Positions 9,793-14,994 of a DNA stretch of 64,000 nucleotides are shown here, piece by piece. The stretch covers positions 4,030,001 through 4,094,000 of the forward strand of contig NZ_PJMW01000002.1 in NCBI RefSeq assembly GCF_002846365.1, written 5' to 3'. The notes under the pieces were generated by a model. That model did not search any database and had not been told where the DNA came from. It saw only the letters and a list, made by a program, of their open reading frames with translations. A program made the translations under genes and the position numbers. The DNA comes from Nocardia fluminea (lineage in GTDB: Bacteria > Actinomycetota > Actinomycetes > Mycobacteriales > Mycobacteriaceae). Each line of letters opens with the position of its first letter. Position 1 is the first letter of the stretch.

Positions 9793-9966
9793 CAGTCCAG
9801 TTTGCAGATCGAGGTTCACGCCGGTCGAGCCGGGCCGGTCACGGGAAGTCTCGCGAGCGTACTGAGAGCACCGCGCATGGGTCATTGCGGTGGTCACCGG
9901 GGCGAGGTGACCAGATGCGGTGCGCCCTCACAGAAACCGCCCCGGAGCGTCGTCCCGGGTGCGAGC

Positions 9967-10587
9967 ATGGTCGTGCGGGTGTCGACTCGAAAGTGGTGGG
10001 GTGTGGCCGATTTCGTGGAGCAGTATGCGTTCGTGCGGTGGCCGGTGGTCGCCGCGTTCGTGCTGGCGACGTGCATCGTGGCGACCCGGCTGACCAGGCG
10101 GACCCCGCTCACGCACCGGATCGATACCGCCTCCGACAGCGCGCACCTGCTCATGTGCCTGGTGATGCTGACCATGCTGGTGTTCCCCGCCGCCACCGAC
10201 CCGCACGCGATGCGCGCGCTGCTCACCGCCCTGACCGTGGCGTTCGCGATCCTGCTCGCCGAACGTGTCATGGGGTGGCTCACCGGGTCGGCACCCGACG
10301 GCGTGGTGGCACTGGGCTATCACACCGTCGCCGCCGCGGCGATGCTGTACGCGATGGCCGGGCACGGGGCGGTGCACGGCGCCGGTGGGGCGAGCTGGCC
10401 CGCCGTGGTGCTGGCGGTGCTGTTCGGCCTCGACGCGCTGCTCGCGCTCGGTACGGCGGGTCACCGGTCGGCCTGGCACCGCTTCGTTCATCCCGCCGGT
10501 GCCCACCCGCTGACCTCGGCGCTGGTGCCCCATGTGGTGATGGATATCGGGACCGCGTTCATGCTGATCGCCGCGTTCGGGCGGTGA
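9967..10587 (+). CDS. DUF5134 family membrane protein
   Basis: A 206-residue polytopic membrane protein with six predicted transmembrane segments. It shows Met/His-rich features of the actinobacterial DUF5134 family: HLLMCLVMLTMLVF, a GYHTVAAAAMLYAM segment and VVMDIGTAFMLI at the end. Conserved His and Met in membrane segments suggest metal handling, but that is an inference. ATG 9967 is given as the start; GTG 10003 is an alternative that trims twelve residues. It lies 58 bp upstream of the sigma-factor-like gene, possibly in the same transcript. Confidence 0.72.
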   Translation: MVVRVSTRKWWGVADFVEQYAFVRWPVVAAFVLATCIVATRLTRRTPLTHRIDTASDSAHLLMCLVMLTMLVFPAATDPHAMRALLTALTVAFAILLAERVMGWLTGSAPDGVVALGYHTVAAAAMLYAMAGHGAVHGAGGASWPAVVLAVLFGLDALLALGTAGHRSAWHRFVHPAGAHPLTSALVPHVVMDIGTAFMLIAAFGR

Positions 10588-10645
10588 ATACCGATCCACA
10601 ACCGCTCGTGCTGCGAATTGCCTTAGTGCGGGCAGGAATTCGACG

Positions 10646-11992
10646 ATGAGTGGGCAGCGCGGTCCCCAACCGCCGCCGGGGTCGCGCGGCGGCGGTCCGC
10701 GCATACCCCCGATCGTGGCCGGCGCCGACGATCGCGAGGAGATGCGCGCGCTCTACCGTGCCACCGGCGCCGCGGCGTTCGGGCTGGCCCTGCGGGTGCT
10801 GCACCGTCGCGGTGCCGCCGAAGATGTTGTTCGCGAGGGCTATCGGCGGGCGAGGGCCGCGCAGTGGATCGTCGACGAGGACGACGCGGGCCGGGAACCC
10901 GATCGCCCCGCCGGGCGATCCGGAGACGACACCGCGTCCGTCCCGCCGTCGCGGCCGGGCCCGGACCTCGGGACACCGTGGGGACGTTCGGCGTTCGTCG
11001 CGACCGAACAACGATCCGATCTGGCCTCCCACACCTACGGTGCGATGGACGTCGCCTTCGGTCGCGGCGTCGTCTACACCCACGACGGCGCCCGCGTGCC
11101 CGACAGTTCCGACGCCGATTCCGGCTCTTGTTCCGGGTTGCCGGACGACCTCGGCGCCGACCGCGCCGTTCCACTCCACCAGGGCGTCGAGGCCGCGGTT
11201 CCCGCCCCGCACCCGGACGACCCCGCAGTCCTCGGCAAGGCCGGTACCGATCGCGACGGCGCAGATCCACGGTCCTCGGGTCACCTCGACGACGATCTGC
11301 CGACCCCGGCCGGCATCGACACCGGACGGTTCGGGATGGACCAGCACAGTGCGCCTGTCCAGCTCGGTCACGACAGCCCGGCGTTCACCCCCGATCAGTC
11401 CTGGCTGCTCGCCCAGATCCATCGCCTCGCGGTCCAGCGCCTGCGGTTGGACCGCCGCGTCGGCGACGACATGCCGTGGCTGGCGGCCGCGGCCAGACTC
11501 GGCTTCGACGACCCGCTCGACAGCCACTGCGAGATCTTCGTCCTCGCCTACTACGGGGGCCGCACCTACCGGGCCATCGGCCGTGAACTGGGCCTGCGGG
11601 TACCGATGGTCACGCGGCTGCTGGCCGAGAGCATCGAACGGCTCGCCGAACAGCGGATTCCCCGGTGGACGGCCAAGCAGTCGTGGTGCCCACCCGGCTC
11701 GGTCCTGTCCTTGGCCGACGCCTACGCGCTCGACGCGGTCGCCGAACTCGAACACCACCACATCGAGAACAAACTCACCGCCACCACCCCGAACAGTCTG
11801 TCGCAGTTCGCCACCCGCGTGCGCGGTGTACACGAAGTGCTCGCACTGCTGGCCGCCGACGACCAGCACACCCCGCCCCGGGCGCTCGAGACCCGCATCC
11901 TCGCCGACCTGGGCACCGCGCCGCAGCGGCGCGGCCACTGGACGGCCAGACCGCCCTGGTTGCGCCGCTTCGGCGGTCAGCCGGAGAGCTAG
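10646..11992 (+). CDS. SigK-like sigma factor fused to RskA-like anti-sigma domain
   Basis: This 448-residue protein is a mosaic. Residues 30-75 (EEMRALYRAT...FGLALRVL...AAEDVV) look like region 2 of ECF19/SigK-type sigma factors. Residues 76-247 are a Gly/Asp/Pro-rich, probably disordered insert. Residues 251-272 (WLLAQIHRLAVQRLR) resemble the end of region 2. Residues 294-335 (EIFVLAYYGGRTYRAIGREL...RLLAESIERLA) resemble region 4 with its helix-turn-helix. Residues 353-425 (ADAYALDAVAEL...VRGVHEVLALLA...PPRALETRIL) resemble the sigma-binding N-terminus of the anti-sigma factor RskA, here without a membrane segment. In relatives sigK and rskA are separate adjacent genes. Whether the sigma part still binds core polymerase is unknown. 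The gene overlaps the convergent phzF-like stop by 4 bp. Confidence 0.72.
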   Translation: MSGQRGPQPPPGSRGGGPRIPPIVAGADDREEMRALYRATGAAAFGLALRVLHRRGAAEDVVREGYRRARAAQWIVDEDDAGREPDRPAGRSGDDTASVPPSRPGPDLGTPWGRSAFVATEQRSDLASHTYGAMDVAFGRGVVYTHDGARVPDSSDADSGSCSGLPDDLGADRAVPLHQGVEAAVPAPHPDDPAVLGKAGTDRDGADPRSSGHLDDDLPTPAGIDTGRFGMDQHSAPVQLGHDSPAFTPDQSWLLAQIHRLAVQRLRLDRRVGDDMPWLAAAARLGFDDPLDSHCEIFVLAYYGGRTYRAIGRELGLRVPMVTRLLAESIERLAEQRIPRWTAKQSWCPPGSVLSLADAYALDAVAELEHHHIENKLTATTPNSLSQFATRVRGVHEVLALLAADDQHTPPRALETRILADLGTAPQRRGHWTARPPWLRRFGGQPES

Positions 11993-12690
11993 AGCACCAC
12001 CACGTGGTCTTCGGCGACCCGGCCGCCGAGGCGAACCCACCCGTCGGAGTCCCACTCGGTGTAGAGCTGCGAACCCTGGCCCTGGGTGATGATCAGCCCG
12101 CGGCGCAGCTGCGCGGTGAGCGCGACCGCCGCCGCCCCGGTCGCCTCGTCCTCGGCGATGCCCATCGCGGGTGCGAACATCCTGGCGCGCAGCGCGCCAC
12201 GTGACTCGTCGATCCAGGCCCAGAAGTAGTGCTGTCCGCCGGTGAAGTCGACAGGCGACAACGCGGCCAGCTCCGGCACCGAAGCCAGCTGCTGGAAGGC
12301 GAATTTCGGGGTCCACTCGGCGCGCGCGGTGATCCAGGTCAGGCCGTCGGTGCGGTCGACGGCCACCGGCCCCGCGGGCACTCGCAGGGTGTGCACGGGC
12401 GTGTGCTGCGCGTCCAGCCACCACGCGGTACCCACGGTGGGGTGTCCGGCGAAGGGCAATTCGATCGCGGGGGTGTAGATGCGGATGTCGGCGATGCCGT
12501 CGACGGGATCGGAGACCACCGTGGTTTCGCTGAAGCCGAGCCGAGCCGCCAGTTCCTGCTTGTCGAGGGCGACGACATCGCCCGCGCGGGCGATGCCGAG
12601 CGCGTTGCCGAGATTTCCGGCCGGATCGGTGAACACTCGGACGACCTCGACCTGGATGTCGGGGGCATCGGGCACATCGTGTGCGTTCAT
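11989..12690 (-). CDS. PhzF family isomerase/epimerase-like protein
   Basis: A 233-residue PhzF-family protein, a fold related to diaminopimelate epimerase. Conserved landmarks are VEVVRVFTDPAGNLGNALG at the N-terminus, the LGFSETTVV segment holding the family acidic residue, ELPFAGHPTVGTAWWL, and a C-terminal EDEATGAAAVALTAQL loop. It is shorter than phenazine-pathway PhzF (about 280), like the mycobacterial homologue near nrdR. The substrate is unknown; no phenazine genes are present. The start at ATG 12690 fits the family N-terminus. Confidence 0.85.
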   Translation of the reverse strand: MNAHDVPDAPDIQVEVVRVFTDPAGNLGNALGIARAGDVVALDKQELAARLGFSETTVVSDPVDGIADIRIYTPAIELPFAGHPTVGTAWWLDAQHTPVHTLRVPAGPVAVDRTDGLTWITARAEWTPKFAFQQLASVPELAALSPVDFTGGQHYFWAWIDESRGALRARMFAPAMGIAEDEATGAAAVALTAQLRRGLIITQGQGSQLYTEWDSDGWVRLGGRVAEDHVVVL

Positions 12691-12767
12691 GAGCGCGAGC
12701 CTACCGGGGTGCCGCGCGCCGCCGATCGACCCTCGAGGGCCCGACGTGTTCGCCTCCGATACGGCGA

Positions 12768-12798
12768 CGGCCCCGATCCGGAATCCGGATCGGGGCCG
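12768..12798 (-). terminator. Rho-independent-type terminator of ahpC-ahpD
   Basis: A perfect 15 bp inverted repeat (CGGCCCCGATCCGGA and its complement) separated by one base, giving a GC-rich stem. It begins 37 bp after the ahpD stop on the minus strand and before the start region of the phzF-like gene. No T-run follows. Confidence 0.8.
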
Positions 12799-12835
12799 TG
12801 CGGCACCGGGAAGAGCAGGCGCGAAGAGCGGCAGA

Positions 12836-13375
12836 TCAGACGGCGGCCGAGGCCAGTGCCTCGGTGGATGCGACCGCCTGGCCGACGCCGGCGACGATCG
12901 CCGCCGCACGCAGCGACTCGAAGATCACCTCGCGCGACACACCGGCTTCGCGCAGCGTCTTCTCGTGTGCCTCGAGGCAGTGCGCGCAGCCGTTGATCGA
13001 GGACACCGCGAACGACCACAGCTCGAAGTCGGCCTTGTCCACCCCCGGGTTGCCGATGATGTTCATCCGCAGGCCCGCGCGCAGATCGTCGTAGCGGCCG
13101 TCCAGGAACGCCTTACCGCGGTAGAACACGTTGTTCATGCCCATGATCGACGCGGCGCCGAGCGCGGCCTCGTAGGCCTCGGCCGAGAGCACGTCGGCGG
13201 CCTCTTCGGCGATCTCACGCAGGGTGGTCGCCGAACGGGTGGCGGCGGCCGACGCCAGCAGAGTGCCCCACAGTTGCTGCTCGTTGAGCACCGTGGTGCG
13301 GGCCAGCGAGGACAGATTGAGCTTGAGGTCCTTGGCGTACTCGGGAAGAGAGTTCTTCAGGTTCTCGATGCTCAT
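12836..13375 (-). CDS. ahpD: Alkyl hydroperoxide reductase AhpD
   Basis: AhpD is a thiol-disulphide carboxymuconolactone-decarboxylase-fold enzyme. It reduces AhpC and, in mycobacteria, links it to lipoamide/DlaT. The 179-residue protein carries the active CxxC in [10 protein letters not shown] (Cys130, Cys133) with His137, as in M. tuberculosis AhpD. It lies 42 bp downstream of ahpC and ends in a strong hairpin. Co-regulation with ahpC by the divergent OxyR is expected. Confidence 0.95.
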
Positions 13376-13417
13376 GACAGTGGGACTCCTCTGGGTGTTT
13401 CGGTGGGGAAGGGTGAA

Positions 13418-14005
13418 TCAGACGCTGGCCGAAAGGAGTTCGCCCGCGTTGATCGTCGGGTCGCCCTTCTTCCAGTTGCAGGCGCACAGCTCGTCGGACT
13501 GCAGGGCGTCGAGCACGCGCAGCACCTCGTCGACGTTGCGGCCGACCGAACCGGCGGTCACCGAGACGAACTGCACCTCGTTGTTCGGGTCGACGATGAA
13601 GGTGGCGCGATCGGCGACCCCGTCGGCGTTGAGAACGCCGGTGGCGGTGGCCAGTTCACGCTTGAGGTCCGACAGCATCGGGAAGGGCAGGGTCTTGAGA
13701 TCCTCGTGCTGGGCGCGCCACTGGAAGTGCACGAACTCGTTGTCGACCGAGGCGCCGAGCACCTGGGTGTCGCGGTCGGCGAACTCGTCGTTCAGCTTGC
13801 CGAACGCGGCGATCTCGGTGGGGCACACGAAGGTGAAGTCCTTGGGCCAGAAGAACACGATGCGCCACTTGCCCGCGTGGTCGTCGCTGGTGATCTGGGT
13901 GAAGTAATCGTCGGGCTGCTGCGCGTCGACCTTGGAGAGGTCGCCTCCGATGACGGCCTTGAGGTTGTATGCCGGGAACTGGTCGCCGATGGTCAGCAGA
14001 GCCAT
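13418..14005 (-). CDS. ahpC: Alkyl hydroperoxide reductase AhpC (peroxiredoxin)
   Basis: This 195-residue typical 2-Cys peroxiredoxin reduces H2O2, organic peroxides and peroxynitrite. The peroxidatic Cys61 lies in FTFVCPTEI and the resolving pair Cys174/Cys176 in ELCACNW, the same three-cysteine arrangement as the M. tuberculosis enzyme that works with AhpD. It starts at ATG 14005 behind a GGAG-containing leader, is first gene of ahpC-ahpD, and is divergent from oxyR with an 80 bp shared control region. Confidence 0.96.
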   Translation of the reverse strand: MALLTIGDQFPAYNLKAVIGGDLSKVDAQQPDDYFTQITSDDHAGKWRIVFFWPKDFTFVCPTEIAAFGKLNDEFADRDTQVLGASVDNEFVHFQWRAQHEDLKTLPFPMLSDLKRELATATGVLNADGVADRATFIVDPNNEVQFVSVTAGSVGRNVDEVLRVLDALQSDELCACNWKKGDPTINAGELLSASV

Positions 14006-14085
14006 GCTTCGTCTCCTCAGTGGTGGTGTGGTTGATGTGAGCCTACTGAAAGGTAAACCCAATTGCTGCTCGTACACTGATAGGT
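14006..14085. promoter_or_regulatory. ahpC/oxyR divergent control region
   Basis: This 80 bp region between divergent ahpC and oxyR is AT-richer than its neighbours (AAGGTAAACCCAATTG) and has short TAC/GTA and TATC/GATA inverted elements. LysR-type regulators bind such divergent regions, so OxyR control of both genes is expected. The exact operator cannot be fixed by eye. Confidence 0.6.
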
Positions 14086-14994
14086 GTGAGTGATCAGACT
14101 TATCAGCCGACCCTGTCGCAGCTGCGTGCGTTCGTGGCCGTCGCCGAATACCGGCATTTCGGCACCGCCGCAGCGCGATTGACTGTGAGTCAACCCACGT
14201 TATCGCAGGCACTGGCATCACTGGAAAACGGTCTCGGGCTCCAGCTGATCGAGCGCAGCACCCGCCGCGTGCTGGTGACCGCCGCCGGGATGCGACTGCT
14301 GCCGCAGGCCATGGCGACTCTGGAGGCCGCCGATCGTTTCGTCGCCTCGGCGACCGGCGACACCCTCGGTGGCACGCTGCGCGTGGGCATCATCCCGACC
14401 GTCGCCCCCTACGTGCTGCCCGGGCTGCTGCCGGAGTTACGCCGCAAACTGCCCGGGGTGCTGCCCCAGGTGGTGGAGGATCAGACCGCGCGGCTGCTGG
14501 AGGGCCTGCGCACCGGCGTACTCGACGTGGCGGTGCTCGCCTTGCCCACCGAAGCCAACGGCCTGGTCGAGATCCCGCTCTACAGCGAGGAATTCGTGCT
14601 GGTGACCCCGCGTGGTCACGAACTCGCCGGCCGCACCGACCTGGCCGCGCCCGCCCTCGCCGACCTCCCGCTGCTGCTGCTCGACGAGGGGCACTGCCTG
14701 CGCGATCAGACCCTGGACCTGTGCCGCTCGGCCGATGTACAGCCCGGCACCGTCGGCGATACCCGCGCCGCCTCGCTGACCACGGTCGTGCAGTGTGTGG
14801 CCGGCGGGCTCGGTGTGACGCTGATTCCGGAGATGGCGGTGGCCGCGGAGACCGCGCGCGCGAGCTTGGACACCGCGCGCTTCGCGGCTCCCGCTCCGGG
14901 CCGCACGATCGGGCTCGCCTATCGGGGGTCGTCCGCGCGAGCCGCGGATTACGAATACCTCGCGGCGGTCATCCGCTCCAAACGCCCATTCTGA
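14086..14994 (+). CDS. oxyR: Hydrogen-peroxide-sensing regulator OxyR (LysR family)
   Basis: A 302-residue LysR-type regulator with an N-terminal winged helix-turn-helix (about residues 10-65, LSQLRAFVAVAEYRHFGTAA) and a periplasmic-binding-like effector domain. The two redox cysteines, Cys204 and Cys213 in EGHCLRDQTLDLC, are nine residues apart like E. coli C199/C208, so this OxyR looks intact, unlike the inactivated M. tuberculosis copy. GTG 14086 is the start, matching family length. It is expected to activate ahpC-ahpD. Confidence 0.95.
   Translation: MSDQTYQPTLSQLRAFVAVAEYRHFGTAAARLTVSQPTLSQALASLENGLGLQLIERSTRRVLVTAAGMRLLPQAMATLEAADRFVASATGDTLGGTLRVGIIPTVAPYVLPGLLPELRRKLPGVLPQVVEDQTARLLEGLRTGVLDVAVLALPTEANGLVEIPLYSEEFVLVTPRGHELAGRTDLAAPALADLPLLLLDEGHCLRDQTLDLCRSADVQPGTVGDTRAASLTTVVQCVAGGLGVTLIPEMAVAAETARASLDTARFAAPAPGRTIGLAYRGSSARAADYEYLAAVIRSKRPF

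Follow-up and report, generated by a model that had tools for sequence, protein, structure and literature searches.

The closest described system is the SigK–RskA pair (ECF19/AS19-1), a sigma factor and its anti-sigma factor whose M. tuberculosis complex is available as 4NQW. Residues 1–81 of RskA inhibit SigK, and several Nocardia carry such a truncated RskA (1–81) beside sigK, as reported in the accessible text of PMC7509140. Chains that combine sigma and anti-sigma parts are also on record. The accessible text of PMC8999054 lists IutY (ECF243), ECF48/52/53, and ECF36, all with membrane parts; proteolysis is demonstrated as the mode of action for IutY and anticipated for the rest. For anti-sigma-like extensions in general, that text allows membrane-bound and soluble forms alike. 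The same text presents PhyR, a response regulator that mimics a sigma factor and targets NepR.

We analyzed a window of 64,000 nucleotides of the Nocardia fluminea genome, in which one gene joins SigK-like segments to the sigma-binding domain of RskA (RskA_N). The product agrees with the SigK–RskA pair in sequence origin, order of parts, RskA_N, promoter element, and the locus, which is that of the pair in other Nocardia. It differs in being one protein without the membrane and outer domains, with a sigma part changed at promoter- and core-binding positions and a long insert in region 2. An anchorless RskA_N is shared with the truncated Nocardia RskA (1–81); the latter, in the accessible text of PMC7509140, is encoded on its own as a small protein next to a functional sigK, and apparently the same locus is also present in our genome (L005). 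As in IutY, ECF48/52/53, and ECF36, sigma and anti-sigma lie in one chain, but those fusions have membrane parts and are presented as sigma factors released by proteolysis (accessible text of PMC8999054), whereas the Nocardia fusion has no anchor and its sigma looks inactive. With PhyR, as far as that text describes it, the fusion has in common a domain resembling sigma that seems to play no direct part in transcription; PhyR has a receiver domain and targets NepR, whereas Pfam gave no receiver-domain match in the fusion protein.

In the literature searched, which covered few subscription papers, we found neither a SigK–RskA fusion described nor any inactive ECF sigma joined to its own anti-sigma. 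Fusions of this general kind are on record, and the present one adds a form whose sigma appears to be dead. Kinases and proteases offer well-established examples of inactive relatives that turned into regulators; the only comparable ECF sigma case that we are aware of is the mimic PhyR. With a probability of about 0.42, we read the fusion as a SigK-inducible, cytoplasmic pseudo-sigma/anti-sigma protein that feeds back, probably negatively, on sigma factors of the SigK family.

The gene is a single intact ORF, and its GC content by codon position (0.77/0.56/0.85) fits a coding frame in this DNA. Pfam matched RskA_N (PF22618) at residues 353–400 with an E value of 2e-14 (53.9 bits; cut-off, 27). 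Sigma70_r4_2 at residues 296–329 reached 17.8 bits (cut-off, 25.7) and Sigma70_r2 at residues 36–69 reached 11.5 bits (cut-off, 24); a canonical SigK of the same genome clears both cut-offs. The NCBIfam SigK model matched in two stretches (E value, 2.6e-9), under its own cut-off. When a profile of 11 orthologues was compared with all PDB chains, the sole matches at E values below 0.1 were the two chains of the M. tuberculosis SigK–RskA complex, RskA (4nqw_B, 8.4e-8) and SigK (4nqw_A, 3.6e-6). The SigK match consists of three collinear pieces with E values, taken singly, of 0.066, 140, and 3.9. Since each piece is weak alone, the collinear set is what counts. In addition, LADAYALDAV in the fusion protein is close to the AS19-1 helix 1 consensus, HTLAGAYALDAL, given in the accessible text of PMC7406223.

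The RskA_C domain, which RskA1 of the same genome has, was not matched by Pfam in the fusion protein. In none of 15 fusion sequences does hydrophobicity reach the level of a membrane helix; the best 19-residue hydrophobic mean of the fusion was 0.95, compared with 2.3 to 2.5 in two membrane RskA proteins. These results partly bear out an earlier note made from this DNA alone. The three SigK pieces correspond to the segments in which it saw two halves of a SigK/ECF19-type sigma factor, an insert of about 173 aa (with our boundaries) lies between the 2.2 and 2.4 helices where it placed one of about 170 residues within region 2, and the RskA N terminus and the soluble, anchorless nature of the protein were both recognized correctly. 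Its expectation of profile matches held for RskA_N and, by PDB profile, for SigK; the sigma parts fell below every curated Pfam cut-off.

AlphaFold models of the 448-aa protein (mean pLDDT, 43) and of the shortest orthologue, the 326-aa protein of N. neocaledoniensis (mean pLDDT, 57; pTM, 0.55), were of low confidence, and docking of RskA_N onto the sigma halves is not readable from either. Foldseek with the model of the shortest orthologue ranked SigK 4nqw_A first at an E value of 0.068, with no match at E ≤0.001. The features of the locus are listed in Table 1.

Table 1. Features of the fusion gene and its surroundings, in window positions
Feature	Positions	Strand	Basis
DUF5134 gene, syntenic upstream neighbor, putative start	9928..10587	+	neighborhood, genus search
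SigK-type promoter-like element CGATCC-N15-GCGAAT, 27 bases before ATG	10592..10618	+	pattern, conservation
Fused pseudo-SigK/RskA_N protein, 448 aa	10646..11992	+	ORF, Pfam, NCBIfam, orthologues, PDB profile search
Sigma region 2, first half, residues 27–75	10724..10870	+	Pfam, NCBIfam, PDB profile, omega 0–0.25 in 12 pairs
Probably disordered, fast-evolving insert, residues 76–248, replacing the 2.3/2.4 loop	10871..11389	+	omega, model, length spread
Conserved motif PDLGTPWGRSAF within the insert	10961..10996	+	conservation, omega
Sigma 2.4 helix, residues 249–272	11390..11461	+	conservation, PDB profile
Shortened linker and sigma region 4, residues 273–337	11462..11656	+	Pfam, PDB profile, model
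Altered −35 recognition helix, residues 318–330	11597..11635	+	residue comparison with canonical SigK
RskA_N sigma-binding domain, residues 351–424	11696..11917	+	Pfam, PDB profile
Conserved tail with RPPWLRR motif, stopping short of the helix position of membrane RskA	11918..11989	+	conservation, omega, hydrophobicity
phzF-like gene, convergent, syntenic downstream neighbor; longest ORF, putative start	11989..12909	−	neighborhood

To assess the state of the sigma half, we took the positions at which at least 90% of 69 canonical SigK–RskA pairs (37 sigK2, 7 sigK1, and 25 sigK3) share one residue and compared them with 15 fusion proteins. RskA_N keeps 8 of 10 such residues and the HTH scaffold 7 of 9. 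The first half of region 2 keeps 11 of 20 and the sigma 2.4 helix 7 of 15; in the linker and region 4.1, 3 of 11 are kept and further positions are missing altogether. The recognition helix keeps 2 of 10, the other eight being changed. Q63, which we take to be the counterpart of the core-binding residue Q406 of sigma-70, is Q in 68 of 69 canonical proteins and R in all 14 fusion sequences covering the position. K323, R325, and R327 are lost in 15/15 fusion sequences, all of which have an R324 that canonical SigK does not, and W253 is lost in 5/15. The functional roles given here to single sigma residues are our assumption. With its −10 loop replaced by the insert, the fusion has neither the continuous region 2 with a 2.3/2.4 loop nor the conserved −35 recognition helix of ECF19. 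The new residues are mostly near-constant in the fusion family, which points to a new role and not to decay. Judging from these changes, the sigma half probably no longer directs transcription.

This bears on the suggestion, also made in the earlier note, of a working sigma factor that is inhibited by its own fused anti-sigma, as in IutY or ECF52. Such fusions exist (accessible text of PMC8999054), and region 4 of the model resembles domain 4 of SigW (6jhe_A; 0.7 Å over 45 columns), but at an E value of 4.3. We disfavor a self-inhibited sigma and consider it improbable, because the residues for core and promoter binding are changed across the whole fusion family: the −10 loop is replaced, Q63R and the loss of K323, R325, and R327 are found in all covering sequences, and W253 is missing from a third of the proteins.

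Selection was estimated as omega in 12 species pairs by the simple pairwise Nei–Gojobori method, which is noisy for short regions. Omega was 0 to 0.25 in the first sigma half, 0 to 0.23 in the linker and region 4, and 0.06 to 0.38 in RskA_N; the sigma 2.4 helix gave 0 to 0.25 in 10 pairs and 0.73 in two. In the insert, omega was 0.47 to 1.97 at residues 76–104, 0.40 to 1.32 in the main part (residues 121–248), and 0 to 0.32 for the motif PDLGTPWGRSAF in the 11 pairs giving a value. Thus, the domains are under purifying selection and the insert is drifting. Between two fixed flanking motifs, both visible in 14 of 15 sequences, the insert measures 67 to 292 residues; the canonical counterpart has about 18, counted by eye in one sigK3 sequence. 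In the coubleae/ignorata group (L047, L048, L049, and L051), the long insert contains irregular G/D/R/H-rich repeats, as judged by eye. A TPWGR motif and the tail are conserved in the fusion family and, by eye, have no counterpart in the SigK and RskA sequences inspected.

Constraint on the first sigma half and on region 4 equals or exceeds that on RskA_N, though promoter and core residues have changed, which would be expected of a mimic. The pseudo-sigma halves might accordingly imitate SigK and titrate RskA proteins, either the 83-aa RskA_N or membrane RskA1, so that SigK is released in a positive feedback with PhyR-like logic, for which PhyR itself is a precedent (accessible text of PMC8999054). 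Such an anti-anti-sigma decoy seems rather doubtful to us: the fused RskA_N would compete in cis, and the linker and region 4.1, part of the known anti-sigma contact according to the accessible text of PMC7406223, are shortened and changed. The earlier note's idea of a decoy, or of a protein that sequesters another sigma, may still hold in either direction.

The fusion was found in 11 of 118 genus genomes, its own counted, and a family-profile search detected it in 17 of 150. Among 397 genomes of the order there were two matches, both in the same genus, and none in the other 84 genera; four candidates were scored per listed genome, so distant relatives may escape detection. A scan of 84,980 species genomes, which overlaps the 118-genome set and may omit records very close to the window, yielded 14 loci, all in Nocardia: alba, salmonicida, neocaledoniensis (two), rosealba, coubleae, ignorata, thailandica, caishijiensis, rhizosphaerihabitans, camponoti, two further species, and one metagenome genome. 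Together with the window, 13 loci are full length and encode proteins of 326 to 549 aa; L042 is truncated at its end, and the start is missing from L050.

The same fused frame is open in the assemblies of many species. This rules out a frameshift or assembly error joining two genes, which the earlier note had kept in view, and the orthologues that it looked for in other Nocardia exist. The dN/dS comparison that it proposed gave low values, mostly below 0.4 in the domains, at odds with a merely degenerate fusion. That only a fragment of sigK is left here in another Nocardia (G043, L155) would suit a decaying pseudogene or an assembly artefact, an explanation that is hardly credible given the open frame in many species and the purifying selection on the domains. 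The fusion is a real gene common to many Nocardia species. A minus-strand ORF at 10559–12424 was dropped as a gene because GC content by codon position fits the plus frame.

At the locus, the DUF5134 gene on the same strand is followed by the fusion, the convergent phzF, ahpD, ahpC, and a gene for a LysR-type regulator. We searched 116 genus genomes and matched DUF5134 in 105. Next comes an intact sigK–rskA pair in 25 of them (with overlap of their BLAST matches by a few bases in 24 of these pairs) and the fusion in 10; thus, the fusion occupies the position of the pair in its relatives. The stretch read stops before the phzF position in two of the intact-pair genomes (G094 and G096), and phzF lies beyond it in three of the fusion genomes (L119, L125, and L126). 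An eleventh fusion genome, G114, has the fusion at the same place beside a more diverged DUF5134. In G043 (L155), a whole membrane rskA follows DUF5134 and sigK is a 100-aa fragment with region 2.2. In 30 genomes, phzF lies within 372 bases of DUF5134 with no sigK or rskA between them. Neither sigK nor rskA occurs in the stretch read of the remaining 39: 7 show ahpD/ahpC without phzF, 9 show phzF further away, and 23 show no landmarks, some of these last being perhaps DUF5134 copies from another part of the genome. Reading extended about 1.5 kb downstream in 10 genomes (G084, G067, G047, G100, G050, G001, G068, G011, G022, and G012).

The ancestral pair, a cut-down form, an empty site, and the fusion are thus all found at one locus in one genus, which makes the route from switch to regulator traceable and testable. 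The presence of the sigK–rskA pair here in relatives also favors the earlier idea that two normally adjacent genes were joined. G043 keeps the SigK-type promoter element and shows that the sigma factor has been lost from this locus by another route as well. Window positions 12836–14991 contain ahpD-ahpC and the LysR-type gene; ahpD/ahpC adjoin the locus in many other Nocardia too, and a link of the SigK pair at this locus with oxidative stress is possible.

RskA_N of the fusion is 38% to 46% identical to that of the locus pairs (sigK3 class, n = 25), 28% to 36% to the sigK1 class (n = 7), and 24% to 34% to the sigK2 class (n = 37). By these sequence identities it is nearest to the sigK3 class, in agreement with synteny. 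Fusion proteins formed one group in both an RskA_N tree (74 columns) and a sigma tree (165 columns), with SH-aLRT values of 96 and 100. Free search placed this group, weakly in both cases, with sigK1 in one tree and with sigK2 in the other (support, 77 and 71); none of the groupings tested was rejected, and these trees do not single out a nearest sigK class.

The promoter-like element lies 27 to 28 bases before the fusion ATG in 11/11 fusion genomes, with TCGAAT as the second hexamer in one, and is present in 13/13 named loci spanning this stretch; L050 ends short of it. We take CCATCC/CCGAAT to be the SigK promoter consensus. In 24 of 25 intact pairs and in G043, CAATCC-N15-CCGAAC follows DUF5134, with spacers that vary between species. 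Compared with this pair consensus, the fusion element has one changed base in its first hexamer and two in its second. Its spacer is nearly identical in 10/11 genomes, so conservation of the hexamers despite a diverged spacer is seen only in N. camponoti. The window has a single match to the pattern C[ACG]ATCC-N15-NCGAA[CT], which has an exact match in 4/7 sigK1 loci and gave 159 matches in 2.08 Mb of strand across all loci, a number inflated by the sites themselves. A related pattern with two mismatches had 7 window matches against 3.96 expected, and 11 of 100 shuffles reached 7, which is not rarer than chance. The case for the element therefore rests on position and conservation, by which the fusion is probably made from a SigK-type promoter.

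Retention of this element, and of the constant positions of RskA_N, weighs against a protein that has been repurposed outside sigma control, with RskA_N and the HTH scaffold serving as a scaffold, dimer, or nucleic-acid-binding module. We regard such repurposing as unlikely, even though the old recognition helix has a new, near-constant residue set including R324, and the TPWGR motif and tail would fit it.

The genome has two further SigK-type genes with an RskA_N partner. sigK1 (L002) has a membrane RskA and adjoins a fasciclin-domain-like gene; sigK2 (L005; G000:C2:684342-685200) has an 83-aa RskA_N partner and adjoins whiB-like and groEL-like genes (the three neighbor names by eye). SigK was matched in 40/40 genus genomes searched, the best match being at least 79% identical in each. 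Upstream of sigK2, CCATCC or CAATCC-N15-CCGAAT was found in 11/11 fusion genomes (at least 11 of 12 bases matched); 0/26 non-fusion genomes, those yielding loci out of 36, reached 11 matched bases, the best having 10. Fusion proteins form one group, so this link may reflect a single event.

The feedback reading draws on the intact RskA_N, the locus shared with intact pairs, and a promoter element at the position of the pair's own. An ancestral sigK–rskA pair beside DUF5134 would have become one gene, a step to which synteny and promoter position point. As the sequences show, the sigma part was then altered at its core-polymerase- and promoter-binding places, its −10 loop gained an elastic insert, and the membrane anchor and outer domain of RskA disappeared. 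By analogy with the parent complex 4NQW, RskA_N could dock on the pseudo-sigma halves in cis. Conservation of the motif suggests that a SigK induces the gene, and the fused RskA_N might capture a SigK-family sigma in trans, perhaps SigK2, whose gene has a SigK-type promoter in every fusion genome examined; we infer induction, partner, and sign of feedback alike. Capture of SigK by a SigK-induced RskA_N would close a negative loop, and this sign is somewhat likelier because RskA 1–81 inhibits SigK in the accessible text of PMC7509140. Against feedback, the sigma half of the same protein may take up RskA_N completely, and because RskA_N, to which we return here, is the part compared, it is least like RskA of the sigK2 class (24% to 34%), sigK2 as the partner is uncertain.

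We further propose, at somewhat less than an even bet, that the sigma half is a pseudo-sigma without polymerase or DNA binding whose DNA-reading helix was rebuilt with new constant residues, that the soluble module is an inducible switch in the SigK network, and that a second SigK took over the autoregulated promoter. Since the join is common to many species and kept by selection, the fusion is probably a feedback regulator rather than a switch.

The promoter pattern has 20 sites in the N. fluminea genome. The backwards pattern gave 0 matches, a control that is hardly fair since reversed words are expected to be rare in such DNA. A minority of the 20 sites precede a plausible gene start, so no regulon is defined by them. 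Promoter-like sites at L104, L110, and L111 precede, by 47 to 85 bases, candidate starts of one NRPS-condensation-like protein and two proteins that look secreted (named by eye). At L103 and L107, the promoter-like match is the same over all 27 bases and may belong to a repeated element.
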